Assembly: GCF_028069655.1 (NCBI RefSeq)
Contig: NZ_JAMCOS010000001.1
Span: forward strand, 5,200,319 to 5,264,318
DNA: 64,000 bases
Origin: Acidovorax sp. NCPPB 4044
GTDB taxonomy: Bacteria > Pseudomonadota > Gammaproteobacteria > Burkholderiales > Burkholderiaceae_C
Direction of reading: 5' to 3'
Positions 52,132-58,794 of the stretch are shown here, piece by piece. Below the pieces are notes generated by a model. The model saw only the letters and a program-made list of their open reading frames with translations, searched no databases and was not told where the DNA came from. The translations under genes and the position numbers were made by a program. Within the stretch, counting starts at the first letter, position 1; every line of letters starts with the position of its first letter.

Positions 52132-53061
52132 ATGAAATTTGAAAATCTCTCCGACCTGCGCGTGATCGTGGAGGCCGCGCGCGGTGGCTCGCTCACCGCG
52201 GCGGCGCGCGCGCTGGAGGTGACGCCTGCCGCCGCCAGCGCCATGCTCAAGCGGCTGGAAGCCCAGGTGGGCGTGCGCCTTTTCGAGCGCTCCACGCGCG
52301 CGCTGCGGCTCACCGAACAGGGCGCCACGCTGCTCGGCTACGCCGAACGCGCGCTGGACCTGCTCGATGAAGGCGCCGGCCTGGCGCAGAGCGACGCGGG
52401 CGCGCTGCGCGGCACCGTGCGCGTGGCCGCCCCCGCAGACCTCTCGCGCGTGCTGCTGCCCTGCATCGACCGGTTTCTGGAACGGCACCCCGGCGTGCAC
52501 GTGGCCCTGTCGGCCAGCGACCGCCTGCAGGACGTGCGCCGCGACGCCGTGGACCTGGCGCTGCGCTACGGCGGCCCGGCGCTGCCCGATTCGCAGCTGG
52601 TCGCTCGCCCGCTGCGCACCACCCGCCGCGTGGCCTGCGCCGCGCCCGACTACCTCGCGCGGCACGGCACGCCGCAGCACCCGGCAGACCTTGCCGCGCA
52701 CCGCTGCATCGGCATGCTCATCGCGGGCCGGCGCGAGACGCACTGGACCTTCGAGCGCGAGCGGGGCGGTGACGGCGGGCGCGCTCCCGGCCCTGCGGAA
52801 ACCGCCACCGTCGCCGTGCGCAGCGACCGCAGCGTGGACGACGGCGCGCTCGCCCACGCCTGGGCGCTGGCGGGCGGCGGCATCGTCTACAAGTCGCAGC
52901 TCGACGTGCAGGCCAGCCTGGAGAGTGGCCGGCTCGTGGCGCTGCTGCCGGGGTGGCTGGGGCAGGCGTACACCGTCTATGCGGTGCTGCCGAGCCAGCG
53001 GTTCGTGCCGGCGCGGGTGCGCGGGCTGGTGGAGCACCTGGCGCAGGCGTGGAAGGGCTGA
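52132..53061 (+). CDS. LysR-family transcriptional regulator
   Basis: A 309-residue LysR protein. The winged-helix N-terminus is FENLSDLRVIVEAARGGSLT then LEVTPAAASAMLKRLEAQVG. The effector-binding domain follows, with VALSASDRLQDVRRDAVDLA and LVARPLRTTRRVACAAPDYL, the CrgA/YafC-like pattern. It is divergent from the dehydrogenase gene, which is its likely target. It is the last host-like gene before the CHAT operon. Confidence 0.92.
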   Translation: MKFENLSDLRVIVEAARGGSLTAAARALEVTPAAASAMLKRLEAQVGVRLFERSTRALRLTEQGATLLGYAERALDLLDEGAGLAQSDAGALRGTVRVAAPADLSRVLLPCIDRFLERHPGVHVALSASDRLQDVRRDAVDLALRYGGPALPDSQLVARPLRTTRRVACAAPDYLARHGTPQHPADLAAHRCIGMLIAGRRETHWTFERERGGDGGRAPGPAETATVAVRSDRSVDDGALAHAWALAGGGIVYKSQLDVQASLESGRLVALLPGWLGQAYTVYAVLPSQRFVPARVRGLVEHLAQAWKG

Positions 53062-53123
53062 CGGGACCGGGCGATGGGGGTGTTCCAGCCGCCTTCACCG
53101 TCGCGTTAGACTGCGTTACAAAA

Positions 53124-53138
53124 TGCAATGAAATTGCA
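53124..53138. promoter_or_regulatory. Palindrome TGCAAT-GAA-ATTGCA upstream of the CHAT operon
   Basis: A perfect 6-bp inverted repeat with a 3-bp spacer in an AT-rich stretch, 76 bp upstream of the operon start. It could be an operator. No regulator gene for it is visible in the operon. Confidence 0.45.
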
Positions 53139-53214
53139 CGCATCGGCGGTCCAGGCACGTCTCTGGATCCGCGCAGACCGGTGACCCCGTCACCACAACG
53201 AGAGAGGTGAGGGA

Positions 53215-56200
53215 ATGCGGCTCAAAGTCACGGATTGGGTGGACGCTACGCGCTGGCGCTGGGTGCTGGAAGAGCCCGATGGACGGTTCATTGCCGACCA
53301 CACGGTGCGGCTGGACCTTGCGAGCCGGGAATGCCAGGCCTTCTTCGACCTGGCCCGGCACCTCGACTACCACGCACCGGTCAGCACTCCGCAAGAGCAG
53401 CTCAGGCAGCTCGGAGACTGGGTGGGCAAGGCCGTTTTCGGGGGATTGCTGCCGGCCCTCCGCAAAAGCGCCCGGCCGCCGGCCAAGGCCGTGCAGGTGA
53501 TCGTGCCCCCGCAGGCACAGGCGCTGCTGGAGCGGCCCTTCGAGATCGCCTGCTTTGCCGATGGCAAGCGCTTCGACGCTGCCGGCCTGCGGCTGGTCTA
53601 CCAATCCGGCGAGTCACCCGCCGCGGCCAAGGCAACGGGGGCCGCCCTGCGCATGCTCGCGGTGTTCAGCCTGCCCGTTCGGGCCCATCCGCTCAACCTG
53701 CGGCGGGAGCGGTACCAGCTGCAGCAACTCGTGCGCCAACTCCAGCAGACCCACGGCCTGGCCGTGGATTTGCGCGTGCTGCAGTACGGCGCCACGCGGC
53801 AGACGCTGAGCGACGCGCTGCAGGAAGACGACGGGTGGGACGTGGTGCACCTGTCGGGGCACGGCCAGAGCGGCCAGCTCTTGCTGGAAACCGAGGACGG
53901 CGGCGAGGACCCGATCGACACGCAGGCTCTGGGCGAGCTGCTCGATCCGCTGCATGACCGGCTCCAGCTGCTGCTGCTCGATGCCTGCTACAGCGGCGCT
54001 GCGAGCCACTCGGCCGCACGCGTGCAGGTGGGCCTGGACGCCACGCGTGACGTCGGCGCGGAGCCGGAGGGTGTGCCTGCGCCCGAAGCGGCGGCCACGC
54101 CGTTGCCCAACCTGGGACATGCATTGGCCGCAAGACTCGACTGCGCCGTGCTGGCCATGCGCTATGCCGTGGACGACAGCTTCGCCACCGAACTCATGCT
54201 GGCGCTCTACGAGAAGTTGCTGGGCAAGCGCCAGCCATTGCCTGCCGCATTGAATCTGGCGGTGCAGGCTGCCGTCAGCAAGCCCATGGGCCTGTCGCCC
54301 TCGGCGCTGGCGGGACTGACCCCGATGTTGCTGGGTGCGCGGGCGGGTGCGCTTCAGTTGACGGTGCCCCAGCACGTCGCCGCCACCGCATTGCCCACCA
54401 CGGGCCTGGACATCGGTTTCCCGCAACAACCCGCGCGCTTCGTCGGGCGGCTGCATCCGATGCTGCGCGCCACCCAGGCCCTGGCCCCGCACAGCCCCCG
54501 GCGGGCGGTTCTCTTCCACGGCATGCCGGGCGCCGGCAAGAGCGCATGCGCTCTGGAGCTGGCCTATCGGCATGAGCAAGGCCGCTTCAGTGGCTATGTG
54601 TGGTACCAGGCGCCGGAGGCGGGCAGCGACATTGCCTCATCGCTGTACCACCTCATGCATGAAATCCAACGCCAGCTGAACGCGCCTGGATTGGGGTTGA
54701 CCACCACACTGGACGATCCGAAACACTTTGCCCAATACACGCTTCCGCGGCTGCGCGTTTTGCTGCAGCAGAAAGCGGTGCTGCTGGTGGTGGACAACCT
54801 GGAAACCCTGCTCACCGACAGCGACCAGTGGCGCATGCCGCTGTGGGGAGAGGTTCTGGAAACGCTGCTGGCCAGCCAGGGTCTTTCGCGTGTGGTGCTG
54901 ACCAGCCGGCGCGTCCCCGTCGCCCTGGTGAACGATGCCAGGGTGCTGGCCCAGCCGATCCATGCGCTCAGCTTTGCCGAGAGCGTATTGCTCGCGCGTG
55001 AGCTGCCGAAACTGGGCAAGCTGTTTGAGAACGAAAGCGACCGCGAACTGCTGCGCCAGACGCTGCGCGTGGTCCAGGGCCACCCCAAGCTGCTGGAGCT
55101 GGCCGACGGGATGGCGGAGGATCGCGAGGCGCTGCGGCAGAGAGTGCAGGCTGCGGAAAAGCAGTTGGCCGACAGCGGCGAGCTGCTCGATGCATTTTTT
55201 GCCAAGGGCGGGGCGCATGAAGGCGAAAGCCAGCAGCAGCCCGAACAATTCGTAAACGCTCTTCAAGGGTGGACCTGCGATGTGCTCTCCCGCCTCACGC
55301 CGACTGCGCAGCGGCTATTTTTCTTCCTATGCCGGCTTGAGCCAGAAGATCGTATTCACTGGGTAGTACTAGGGAATTGGAGCGACACTCTCGTGCGGAT
55401 GGATGAGGCAGACGCGAGTGCGCGGGCGGAACATGGACAGGGACTGCTTCCGGCCCTGCAGGAACTGGAAGAAGCTGGTTTGATCGATTCATCGCTTGGT
55501 TCTGGCGCTAGGCCAGCAAGTGCTTATTACAGAATTCATCCTGGCGTCGCTGAGGCAGCATTGGAGCTCGCCGACGTGGCGTTTCTCGACGCCACAGATG
55601 TTGAACTAGGCCGATTTTTCACTACTGCCTTCTCTCAGTTTCAGAAGAACGAGAGCGATGAATGGGCTGTGGCAAATGCTGCACGTCGTGGTACGCCTTA
55701 CCTAATGCGCACTCAACAATGGGGGGCCGCTGCCTTGCTTCTCGGGCATCTTCTTACGGTGGACGAAAGACCAGATACGGTTGCATTTGCTCTGCCGGTG
55801 TTGAAACGCTGTGCTACAGCCACTATTCGTAGCGCTGACGAGTTGGCAGTTGCAGGAACGTTGGCGGAGGCCTTAGCGAAGGCTGGCCTGAACGATGAGG
55901 CCGAACAGGGCATGCGGAGTGTGATTGATCTTGCACGCAGTTCAAATCAATACCGGGTGGCATCTGCGGTCGGCGCAGACCTGACAAATCTATTGCGCGG
56001 CACTGGTCGAGCGAAAGAAGCCTTGCAGGTTTGCGAGGATGCAGCTACGGATACTCGCAAAGCGGGACTTGGGCCTTGGACTCAGATAGGGGATGAAGGG
56101 CGGCGCTTGCAAGTAATGGCTGCGCTTGGGCACTACGCAGAGGTGTGGCGAGCGGTGAAGCGCTTGCGCTTGCTAATGGCCAATCTGCCAGAAAGAAGCG

Positions 56201-57378
56201 AGGCGAATGAAGCTGTAGACCTTTGGAGGGTGCGTGAAATAGTGCTGGACACCGGACATACCGCCGCGTTGTATTTGGAATACTACGAAGAAGCACTGGA
56301 GTTGAATGACGAAATTATTGAAATCATGCGCAATCGCGGCGCAAGCGCATTGCGGTTGGCGCGCACGCGGTTTAATGATTATGGACCACTGCTCGCACTA
56401 GGGCGGAGTCAAGACGCTCGCATTCTCTTGCTCGAATGTCGTAGGCTTTTTGAAGCGGAGCGTTACGTTCAAGGGTTAGGAAAGATCTTTTCGGCTTTGG
56501 CCGACGTCGAAGGTGCGACTGGCAACTTTTCAGATAAACCGGTGAAATTTGAATGTGTAGCACTGACCTATAAATATCATGTTGGAGACCCGGATGACTG
56601 TTCGATCAGTCACCACAACTTGGCGAAGTATTTGTATTTGTCAGGTAGTCACGAAGAGGGCCTCGCCCACTTGCTGGCGTCCGCTACGTTGAGTATGCAG
56701 ATACTAGCGGGTCATTCGGAAAGTATTGCCGAGGTTCTGGCTAATCTCGAGCTTCCAATGGAGCCCCCGCCTTTTGACGACGTGGTCAAGCAAGTTGAAA
56801 AAGTTCCTGGCGTGCGCTTCGCCGAACTCTTCAAACGACTGCCCCGCAACTTTACGGATGGGGACAGCTTGTTGGCGGCTCTGTGGCAATTAGTGCGTGA
56901 CAAAAGACACCGGTGGATTCATAGGGCGGAGGCGATACCCGCTGTACTCGCAGAAATGCCTTTGTCGGTTCGAGCTGCTTTTGAATTAGAGGGAGATGGT
57001 TTCTCAAGCGCAATCCGGTCAGCGCTGGAGTCGTTACCCGGGGATAAATCTATGCAAATACTTCAGCGATTGCGTGAAACGGATTTGATCAGAGAACGGG
57101 TCCATAGCGAGCCCATCGGCAAGACCCTAAAGCAGTTCGAGCCTTTGCTTCAGAAGATCGCAGCATCGATCGCTGATGAAGATCAGGAGCATCAAGTCGC
57201 ACTCGAAGCACTGCTGATCGACCTCCATGGGAGGGGATTCAATTTGAGGGAGCCAGTGCACCGCATGTGTTCAGGAGAGCGCAACGCCCCCGCACTGGTC
57301 GCTGGCCTCGATGCAACCGATACCCGCCTGATCGAGCGGCTGCTCGAACTGGTGTCTCAACCCACAGGCGACGGATGA
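53215..57378 (+). CDS. CHAT protease - STAND ATPase - repeat protein (candidate defence sensor)
   Basis: A 1387-residue cytoplasmic protein. An N-terminal segment (1-130) without a name leads to a CHAT (caspase-like) domain at about 130-380 with His216 (LSGHGQSG) and Cys258 (LLLLDACYSGAAS). A STAND-type ATPase follows: Walker A GMPGAGKS (436-443, Lys442), Walker B VLLVVDN with Asp527, and LTSRRVPVAL as a sensor motif. From about 700 to the end it is helical, TPR-like repeats (for example AGTLAEALAKAGLNDEAEQG and ALQVCEDAATDTRKAG). From about 55290 to 57230 the DNA is clearly less GC-rich than before, so the repeat region appears to be replaced. GAGAGG precedes the ATG. The subtilase gene follows after 48 bp. 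Confidence 0.88.
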   Translation: MRLKVTDWVDATRWRWVLEEPDGRFIADHTVRLDLASRECQAFFDLARHLDYHAPVSTPQEQLRQLGDWVGKAVFGGLLPALRKSARPPAKAVQVIVPPQAQALLERPFEIACFADGKRFDAAGLRLVYQSGESPAAAKATGAALRMLAVFSLPVRAHPLNLRRERYQLQQLVRQLQQTHGLAVDLRVLQYGATRQTLSDALQEDDGWDVVHLSGHGQSGQLLLETEDGGEDPIDTQALGELLDPLHDRLQLLLLDACYSGAASHSAARVQVGLDATRDVGAEPEGVPAPEAAATPLPNLGHALAARLDCAVLAMRYAVDDSFATELMLALYEKLLGKRQPLPAALNLAVQAAVSKPMGLSPSALAGLTPMLLGARAGALQLTVPQHVAATALPTTGLDIGFPQQPARFVGRLHPMLRATQALAPHSPRRAVLFHGMPGAGKSACALELAYRHEQGRFSGYVWYQAPEAGSDIASSLYHLMHEIQRQLNAPGLGLTTTLDDPKHFAQYTLPRLRVLLQQKAVLLVVDNLETLLTDSDQWRMPLWGEVLETLLASQGLSRVVLTSRRVPVALVNDARVLAQPIHALSFAESVLLARELPKLGKLFENESDRELLRQTLRVVQGHPKLLELADGMAEDREALRQRVQAAEKQLADSGELLDAFFAKGGAHEGESQQQPEQFVNALQGWTCDVLSRLTPTAQRLFFFLCRLEPEDRIHWVVLGNWSDTLVRMDEADASARAEHGQGLLPALQELEEAGLIDSSLGSGARPASAYYRIHPGVAEAALELADVAFLDATDVELGRFFTTAFSQFQKNESDEWAVANAARRGTPYLMRTQQWGAAALLLGHLLTVDERPDTVAFALPVLKRCATATIRSADELAVAGTLAEALAKAGLNDEAEQGMRSVIDLARSSNQYRVASAVGADLTNLLRGTGRAKEALQVCEDAATDTRKAGLGPWTQIGDEGRRLQVMAALGHYAEVWRAVKRLRLLMANLPERSEANEAVDLWRVREIVLDTGHTAALYLEYYEEALELNDEIIEIMRNRGASALRLARTRFNDYGPLLALGRSQDARILLLECRRLFEAERYVQGLGKIFSALADVEGATGNFSDKPVKFECVALTYKYHVGDPDDCSISHHNLAKYLYLSGSHEEGLAHLLASATLSMQILAGHSESIAEVLANLELPMEPPPFDDVVKQVEKVPGVRFAELFKRLPRNFTDGDSLLAALWQLVRDKRHRWIHRAEAIPAVLAEMPLSVRAAFELEGDGFSSAIRSALESLPGDKSMQILQRLRETDLIRERVHSEPIGKTLKQFEPLLQKIAASIADEDQEHQVALEALLIDLHGRGFNLREPVHRMCSGERNAPALVAGLDATDTRLIERLLELVSQPTGDG

Positions 57379-57426
57379 CTACAGGACGGTCGCCCCAGAA
57401 AATTCACAACGAGGGAGGAAATCAAA

Positions 57427-58671
57427 ATGGAAAAAGACAGCTATCTGGTTCTCAGGGTCACCGGCGGTGGCGCAGTCAGGGAGGCCGGCCATGAGGTGCT
57501 CAGGAGCACCGTTCGTTCGCACGGCTTCTCCGTGCCCACGGCTTCTGCCTTCGGGGTGGAGCCGCCCCAGTACCGGGTCGACACCCAGGTACTGGATGCG
57601 AAGGATTACAAGGACCTGCGCCAGGACCGGACCGTGGCGGCCATCGCAAAGCCGATGCCCCTGCGCAGGATTGCACCGGTGCCCAGCGCAGCCGCGGCGC
57701 CCAAGCCCGCGCCCGCCGACGGCGCCACCTGGGGCGTTCGGGTAACGGGCGCCTTGCAGAGCCCGTATCTCGGGTACGGGGTCTGCGTGGCCGTGCTCGA
57801 TACCGGCATCGACGCCGGCCATGAGGCTTTCACCGGTATCGAACTCGTGCAGAAGGACTTCACCGGTGAAGGCAACGGCGACGCGGACGGCCATGGAACG
57901 CACGTGGCGGGCACGATCTTCGGCCAGCCCGGCAGCGGGCTCCGGTATGCCGTGGCGCCGGGCGTGCGCCGGGCCCTGATCGGCAAGGTGATCGGCCAGA
58001 ACCGCTCGGCCACCACGAAAGAGCTGATCGACGCGATCCAGTGGGCGGCCGACGAACGGGCCCACATCGTCAACATGTCGCTGGGTTTCGACTTCCCGGG
58101 GCTGACGGAGTATTGGGTGCAGCAAGGGTTGCCGGTGGACCTCGCCACCTCGCGTTCGCTCGCGCAGTACCGCGACAACGTGCGCTTCTTCGACGCGACC
58201 ATGAACCTGCTGCGTGCGCGCTCGGCGGAGTTCGGCAGCCCGCTGGTGGTGGCCGCCGCCGGCAACGAGAGCCGCCGGCTCGTGAAGATCGACCACGTCA
58301 TCGAGGTGTCGCCGCCTGCCGCGGCGGACGGCATGGTTTCCGTGGCGGCGCTGGAGTCGCTGGACGCGGACCACACCCGGTTGGGCGTGGCGCCGTTCTC
58401 CAACATCCGCGTCTCGCTCGCCGCGCCCGGCCACGAGATCTACTCTGCCCGGGCAGGCGGCGGCTACACCTTCCTGAGCGGGACGAGCATGGCGAGTCCG
58501 CACGTCGCCGGCGTCGCGGCACTGTGGGCCGAGCGGCAGCTCAAGCAGACGGGCCGGGTCAGCATGTCGACGCTGGATGCGCAGCTCCGCGGCAACGTGC
58601 GGTCCGACCGTCTGGCGGGCAGCCACTATCTGGACGTGGGCGATGGTTTGGTCACGGCGCCCTCCGCCTGA
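57427..58671 (+). CDS. Subtilisin-like (S8) serine peptidase without export signal
   Basis: A 414-residue subtilase. The catalytic triad is Asp125 (VAVLDTGID), His156 (DGHGTHVAG) and Ser354 (SGTSMASPHVAG), with oxyanion Asn280 (AAAGNES). The first 100 residues have no signal peptide and look like an I9-type pro-domain (RTVAAIAKPMPLRRI) followed by a Pro/Ala linker, so the enzyme is likely cytoplasmic and may be held inactive. GGAGG lies 8 nt before the ATG, 48 bp after the CHAT-STAND gene, so the two form an operon. Activation by the CHAT protease is an inference from this arrangement. Confidence 0.92.
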   Translation: MEKDSYLVLRVTGGGAVREAGHEVLRSTVRSHGFSVPTASAFGVEPPQYRVDTQVLDAKDYKDLRQDRTVAAIAKPMPLRRIAPVPSAAAAPKPAPADGATWGVRVTGALQSPYLGYGVCVAVLDTGIDAGHEAFTGIELVQKDFTGEGNGDADGHGTHVAGTIFGQPGSGLRYAVAPGVRRALIGKVIGQNRSATTKELIDAIQWAADERAHIVNMSLGFDFPGLTEYWVQQGLPVDLATSRSLAQYRDNVRFFDATMNLLRARSAEFGSPLVVAAAGNESRRLVKIDHVIEVSPPAAADGMVSVAALESLDADHTRLGVAPFSNIRVSLAAPGHEIYSARAGGGYTFLSGTSMASPHVAGVAALWAERQLKQTGRVSMSTLDAQLRGNVRSDRLAGSHYLDVGDGLVTAPSA

Positions 58672-58794
58672 GGCATGGCCGCCCGGGACCGGTGGCGCAG
58701 GGATGCGCCGGGTGGCGGCGCCCGCCCGCATAATCTCCGCCGTGCGGCATGGCCCCCAGGGGCCGCTGCAACCTCCGACCCATTCACGCACCCC

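Follow-up and report, generated by a model that had tools for sequence, protein, structure and literature searches.

Two adjacent genes at positions 53215 to 58671 of a 64,000-nucleotide stretch of the Acidovorax sp. NCPPB 4044 genome (contig NZ_JAMCOS010000001.1; the whole stretch is hereafter called the window) encode a CHAT-STAND-TPR protein and a subtilase of the S8 peptidase family. We interpret this locus as a caspase-like protease that is activated by its sensor and switches on the subtilase, the two forming a horizontally acquired, NLR-like conflict module that is probably anti-phage. We give this interpretation an even chance of being correct. The direct observations behind it are the architecture, the intact catalytic sites, a predicted zymogen fold, recurrent adjacency, exchange of the sensor half and patchy insertion. 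An earlier reading of the window (the original prediction) had already proposed such a pair, and the present finding goes beyond it in that other caspase-fold proteins, too, are accompanied by this S8 subfamily. The features of the locus are listed below.

53215..57378, plus strand: CHAT-STAND-TPR gene, 1387 aa, ATG start (open reading frame (ORF) call and Pfam).
53446..54273, plus strand: CHAT (caspase-like) domain, residues 78-353, dyad His216/Cys258 (Pfam).
54478..55173, plus strand: NB-ARC/STAND ATPase, residues 422-653, with Lys442 and Asp527 (Pfam).
55285..57375, plus strand: repeat half, residues 691-1387; apparently exchanged, by comparison with P0003 of Acidovorax sp. GBBC 3334.
57379..57426, plus strand: intergenic gap of 48 bp; by eye, it contains a GGAGG-type ribosome-binding site.
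57427..58671, plus strand: S8 subtilase gene, 414 aa, ATG start, triad Asp125/His156/Ser354 and Asn280; probable zymogen according to its model.
57427..57714, plus strand: pro-domain and linker predicted for the subtilase, about residues 1-96.
53048..58791, no strand: cassette stretch without a blastn match in four same-genus genomes, where 2.7-3.6 kb of other DNA lies between the shared flanks.

In the first protein, Pfam places a CHAT domain (PF12770) at residues 78-353 (E 1.3e-8; 35.1 bits against a cut-off of 24) and an NB-ARC domain at residues 422-653 (E 2.3e-8, above cut-off). The residues that the original prediction had singled out are conserved among the best 120 proteins, query included: His216 in 116 of 116 and Cys258 in 116 of 117 non-gap rows, the Walker A residue Lys442 in 119 of 120 and the Walker B residue Asp527 in 120 of 120. 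By its Pfam match and His/Cys dyad the protein is a predicted CHAT protease, and by its NB-ARC-type ATPase, N-terminal CHAT effector and C-terminal repeats it is a predicted STAND sensor. The repeats are weak in the window protein itself (TPR_12, E 0.011, below the Pfam cut-off), but across alignment A1 TPR_12 matches 16 of the 24 proteins. The PADLOC defence models gave no family for CHAT-STAND at E 0.1, and the NCBIfam model of EACC1-type caspases scored only 25 bits against the CHAT part, with a cut-off of 140. A PDB sequence search with the CHAT-STAND profile matched only solenoid-type and designed proteins, all within the repeats. The same genome holds a second CHAT protein (G000:C1:1543944-1544237; L002, L061), with CHAT at residues 300-528 of the 550-aa ORF scanned and an open frame of 1334 aa. 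The 16 kb read around this gene contain nothing that matches the window CHAT-STAND or S8 at E 1e-4. In two Geodermatophilus genomes (L015, L020), several CHAT-STAND ORFs stand in tandem; the ORFs at the Geodermatophilus, several Pseudomonadota S8 and Actinobacterial loci were called for this analysis, in high-GC DNA.

The second ORF, 48 bp downstream, encodes a Peptidase_S8 domain (residues 117-371, E 5.9e-37, Pfam). The intact triad that had been claimed for it was recovered, with Asp125, His156 and also Asn280 each present in 120 of 120 rows and Ser354 in 119 of 119 non-gap rows (best 120 S8 proteins, query included). No terminator-like site was called in the gap between the two genes, and a promoter scan gave no sigma-70-type site. 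The first 60 residues of the subtilase contain no signal-like hydrophobic stretch (highest 15-residue Kyte-Doolittle mean, 0.6), so export of the enzyme, which had been named beforehand as grounds for rejecting the idea, is not indicated. Pfam gave no pro-domain match in this protein. Compared with the PDB, its AlphaFold2 model has as its nine best matches subtilisins that all bear a pro-domain, with alignments starting at residue 1-3. Because the predicted fold best matches unprocessed pro-subtilisins, the window S8 is probably a zymogen; its model combines the catalytic triad with an N-terminal pro-domain fold, in agreement with the pro-domain that had been suspected. The protein (P0002) also matches the PADLOC 'subtilase' model (E 4.3e-21), which we take to belong to the set of the bacterial gasdermin system. 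No gasdermin family was named among the 13 window ORFs scanned (44.0-63.9 kb; five match nothing, and several are probably antisense frames), and no genome-wide gasdermin search was made.

The two genes form a recurring unit. Protein searches gave at least 603 CHAT-STAND and at least 7513 S8 relatives, of which the best 120 of each were listed. The best 119 non-query clusters per family were compared by the longest contig of each cluster, a test that can miss pairs. Sixteen of the 119 CHAT-protein clusters match one of the 119 S8 clusters in the size of this contig, versus 0.30 coincidences on average (maximum 3) when the sizes were shifted by 1-300 bases (600 shifts). A 17th coincidence, of P0245 with P0157 (5492 bases), was found later and lies outside this count. 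Among 41 CHAT-STAND loci in genome contigs, the S8 gene is directly downstream in Variovorax sp. JS1663 (L003), which is also one of the 16 coincidences, and in the metagenome-assembled genome (MAG) GS5 (L005); at some of the 41 (e.g., L019, L033 and L036) the sequence stops within the CHAT-STAND gene or at its edge, so that the downstream neighbour is not visible there. G210 carries the same pair as MAG GS5, on an equal-sized contig. The distances between CHAT parts correlate with those between S8 proteins over 18 pairs (r 0.70, permutation p 0.0005), and the S8 correlation is 0.69 for the STAND part and 0.65 for the repeats; 15 of these 18 pairs are known only from the coincidence of longest contigs. 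These correlated distances fit co-inheritance of the two proteins.

The S8 subfamily was also traced to other contexts, through a plasmid search (8 records at E 1e-40) and a sample of Pseudomonadota (3 of 398 genomes, own included). A caspase-fold gene lies directly upstream of S8 in seven of nine Pseudomonadota loci (window, L003, L005, L166, L168, L169 and L174), always first and separated from it by 8-48 bp. Four of the six loci found by S8 alone, outside the window, have such a gene. The order is TIR (ThsB-like), caspase C14 and S8 in both Sphingomonas (L166), followed there by a CHAT and a second TIR gene, and G1065 (L174), where the next gene matches PADLOC GajA with an E-value of 2.2e-241. 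CHAT precedes S8 in Sinorhizobium (L169) and also on an Agrobacterium Ti plasmid (L168), where TIR comes third; four Agrobacterium records carry S8, and the gene order was read in one. A cluster of conflict genes near L168 comprises a caspase-TIR pair, a trypsin-NucA fusion, further CHAT genes and a second S8. Thirteen of the 35 lower-scoring plasmid S8 records served as distant controls; in the PLSDB annotation, which is incomplete, none of them shows CHAT or caspase within 4-5 kb. Distant plasmid S8 genes of Palleronia, Deinococcus, Vibrio and Streptomyces (L176-L180, L187) have a small gene of about 74-87 aa closely downstream, perhaps encoding an inhibitor.

In a tree, the window S8 groups with the A2 set, apart from the group of L166, L168 and L174 and from the Actinobacterial group, with several deep forks weak or open. 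The L174-type caspase occurs in 43 plasmid records (best 25 listed), and close relatives of the L174 S8 occur in 8 plasmid records, plus three more distant Vibrio records; the Sphingomonas record is the only one common to the caspase and S8 matches listed. S8 is therefore an optional partner here too. Searches for S8 gave 0 of 400 genomes in the phylum of G408 (Anaerolineae), without a positive control, so that absence is not established, and 1 of 327 genomes in the class of G1178, which is G1178 itself.

The repeat half of the sensor appears to have been exchanged. Over residues 1-660 the window protein is 97.7% identical to P0003 of Acidovorax sp. GBBC 3334, whereas over residues 691-1387 identity is only 45-47%, and the best-scoring match of the repeat half is P0020 of Variovorax (57%). 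The gap between front and repeat identity in this pair is the largest of 6436 protein pairs (mean 7.4 points, standard deviation 5.8). GC content at third codon positions is 0.83 over residues 1-690, 0.54 beyond and 0.88 in the S8 gene, and the C-terminus of P0003 is shorter than that of the window protein. Based on the near-identical residues 1-660, the repeats at about 47% and the drop in third-position GC at the junction, the simplest reading is a recombination event by which one of the two lineages, that of the window or that of P0003, received a different repeat half. This is what would be expected if the repeats act as sensor, as the original prediction had assumed. A search with the repeat half alone gave at least 77 further proteins, with no other effector named in their Pfam annotation, and for this reason the exchange appears to be confined to the CHAT-STAND family. 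The otherwise near-identical Acidovorax alleles with differing repeat halves offer a natural comparison for identifying what is recognised by the sensor.

The surroundings of the operon suggest acquisition. Pfam matches were obtained for 8 of the 13 neighbouring ORFs, namely LysR, zinc dehydrogenase, AhpC/redoxin, DsbD, DUF2946, a TonB receptor, PepSY and a methyl-accepting chemotaxis protein (MCP) fragment, with LysR and DUF2946 as immediate neighbours. In four of the five same-genus genomes tested (G386, G265, G190 and G088), the LysR and DUF2946/TonB flanks are retained around 2.7-3.6 kb without blastn match to the cassette; the fifth (G328) gave no LysR match at E 1e-100. The LysR-DUF2946 spot (53048-58791), which holds different DNA in these four congeners, may be a variable site. 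CHAT-STAND was matched in 1 of 17 genomes of the genus, that of the window, and in 2 of 399 genomes of a family sample (own and G210). Because presence is so patchy, the operon was probably acquired horizontally. Mobile-element ends were sought, and only short imperfect repeats were seen, with no transposon-like ends. A viral, phage or plasmid origin of CHAT-STAND was considered and rejected: of 337 pattern matches in viral contigs, none encodes a relative. The S8 relatives in viral contigs (80 kept, at most 36% identity) were judged too distant.

Based on these observations, a plausible mechanism can be proposed. The exchangeable C-terminal repeats would sense an invader or a cue of cell damage. 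By analogy with STAND biology, the ATPase would then switch to an oligomer and turn on the CHAT cysteine protease, which would cut the pro-domain or the linker of the co-encoded cytoplasmic subtilase. The freed subtilase may be a broad protease that degrades proteins and thereby stops phage production or kills the cell. The S8 gene would be a portable executioner picked up by several different caspase-fold proteases. More tentatively, and with a little less than an even chance in our estimate, the whole S8 subfamily could be a portable executioner zymogen repeatedly acquired by sensor systems (CHAT-STAND, CHAT, TIR-caspase and perhaps NACHT). Bacteria would then run a true cascade from initiator caspase to executioner, in which the executioner has another protease fold and recombination swaps the sensor halves. 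If true, caspase-like initiators in bacteria would unlock a second protease of a different kind, a two-protease cascade parallel to the initiator and executioner caspases. As the same S8 partner stands behind several sensors, one cleavage mechanism could explain several conflict systems at once.

Several results weigh against this cascade. At E 1e-40, S8 is absent from 37 of the 39 other CHAT-STAND genomes, among them the Accumulibacter genome whose copy is 66% identical (L007); of the 41 loci, 39 enter this count, L017 and L040 sharing assemblies with L011 and L036. Judged from these genomes, the subtilase is an optional add-on and the partnership is not obligate on the CHAT-STAND side, so the predicted co-occurrence holds as a recurring two-gene unit and fails as a strict rule. 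Nine ORFs neighbouring S8-less CHAT-STAND genes (L004, L007, L009, L012) revealed no alternative partner: they include metabolic and transport genes, one DUF2252, in L007 an opposite-strand ORF resembling a metallopeptidase, and four ORFs without family. The frequent absence of S8 would suit two parallel effectors, CHAT and subtilase acting independently under the control of the STAND sensor or of infection, with no cleavage between them. So would the resemblance of S8 to pro-subtilisins, which mature by self-processing; the pro-domain of the window S8 may likewise be processed without CHAT. Yet S8 follows three different kinds of caspase-fold gene, which would be odd if the cysteine protease did not act on it, and we regard parallel action as unlikely. 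Two unrelated proteases that are merely adjacent would also explain why most CHAT-STAND genomes lack S8. Such chance proximity is contradicted by the 16 coincidences against 0.3 at shifted sizes and by the adjacency in Variovorax sp. JS1663 and MAG GS5, and is extremely improbable. The subtilase could instead be a brake or processor that cuts CHAT-STAND or its products to mature them or shut them off, as the constant gene order in the seven adjacent loci and the existence of the sensor without S8 would allow. Its partners, however, are caspase-fold proteins of different architecture and NACHT proteins, and since they differ in this way one shared S8 substrate is less likely; we consider a brake or processor very unlikely.

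Other points also count against the proposed cascade. The correlated CHAT and S8 distances may reflect common descent alone, and since it was the CHAT-STAND query that led to L003 and L005, these two are no independent counts for S8. In L170 and L175 no caspase-fold gene lies upstream: in Bradyrhizobium L170 the S8 gene is split, preceded by transposase genes and followed by trypsin-like genes, and L175 has a lone S8. The CHAT gene that precedes S8 in L168 also has a divergently oriented neighbour, the second and more remote S8 (85 bits), so proximity to CHAT is not wholly specific to the S8 subfamily. In the Actinobacterial order of G410 (Streptosporangiaceae), where the subfamily occurs in 21 of 322 genomes, no caspase-fold gene was found at the 22 S8 loci (phmmer and motif search, 13 kb read; 7 kb for L194). 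A NACHT protein is directly upstream in 7 of these 22, assigned by Pfam in L199, L205 and L206 and by at least 62% identity to L199 in L201-L204. Nonomuraea L167 resembles L205, with an identical S8. In L199, L201-L206 and L167, S8 comes after a NACHT protein that is about 720-750 aa long and contains hydrophobic stretches, possibly a separate NACHT-S8 pair. In six of the seven Actinobacterial S8 loci L191-L197, a 93-107 aa ORF lies just downstream. Finally, no defence gene was recognised by Pfam among the 13 ORFs beside the window operon, and CHAT-STAND relatives were not found in viral, phage or plasmid collections. The defence-island location that had been expected is thus not seen at the window itself, while S8 relatives do lie in conflict-type loci, once beside GajA (Gabija). 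The absence from phage and viral collections, together with the many CHAT-STAND loci from filamentous Actinobacteria, Chloroflexi and planctomycetes, might point to stress-induced or developmental programmed death, or to signalling, in place of phage defence. We consider this quite unlikely, because patchy insertion between conserved flanks, sensor exchange and the GajA neighbour in L174 are more typical of defence.

Several known systems share parts of this architecture. The antiphage proteins Avs and bNACHT are STAND/NLR-like, with a central STAND ATPase, an N-terminal effector and C-terminal repeats. The window protein shares this layout and differs by its CHAT effector, the separate S8 and the lack of a PADLOC match for CHAT-STAND. 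In IetAS, the S8 anti-phage peptidase IetS has an ATPase as partner, as does the window S8; the latter, however, scores 26 bits against the NCBIfam IetS model, whose cut-off is 900. Rousset et al. are said to have described, in 2025, a TIR and caspase pair that is type IV Thoeris-like. A caspase-fold protease is common to both systems, and in L174 and L166 the S8 subfamily comes next after ThsB-like TIR and caspase C14. In contrast, no TIR gene adjoins the window operon, where the sensor consists of fused STAND and TPR parts.

In Hachiman, AVAST and canu loci, a sensor-linked protease is described as activating a separately encoded pro-enzyme that was repeatedly acquired by unrelated systems (PMC12799240); in the parts consulted, this pro-enzyme is an MBL-type nuclease, whereas the window partner is a Peptidase_S8. 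The TPR-CHAT protein Csx29 of type III-E CRISPR, to which the original prediction had compared the locus, is likewise presented as a CHAT cysteine protease with TPR repeats (PMC9729208, PMC10028731, sections consulted). The likeness holds for the domains, but the window protein has a STAND ATPase between CHAT and the repeats. The search for CRISPR/Cas families, gRAMP/Cas7-11 included, covered the 13 window ORFs and no other part of the genome, and it recognised none. For conflict systems, cascades of several peptidases with S8 among them have been predicted (Kaur et al. 2020, PMC7159879), but the term 'CHAT' does not occur in the main text of that paper, nor the CHAT-STAND/S8 pair in the sections consulted. 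As the original prediction had supposed, the pair was not found as a described system in the open-access PMC literature searched, subscription papers being outside its scope. The nearest published parallel found is in Thiohalocapsa, where a NACHT/STAND target neighbours an S8-WD40 peptidase (PMC10907252). According to the sections consulted, that system lacks CHAT, its S8 carries WD40 and its diversification is due to a retroelement, but it shares with the window operon a STAND protein, a neighbouring S8 and a diversified sensor.

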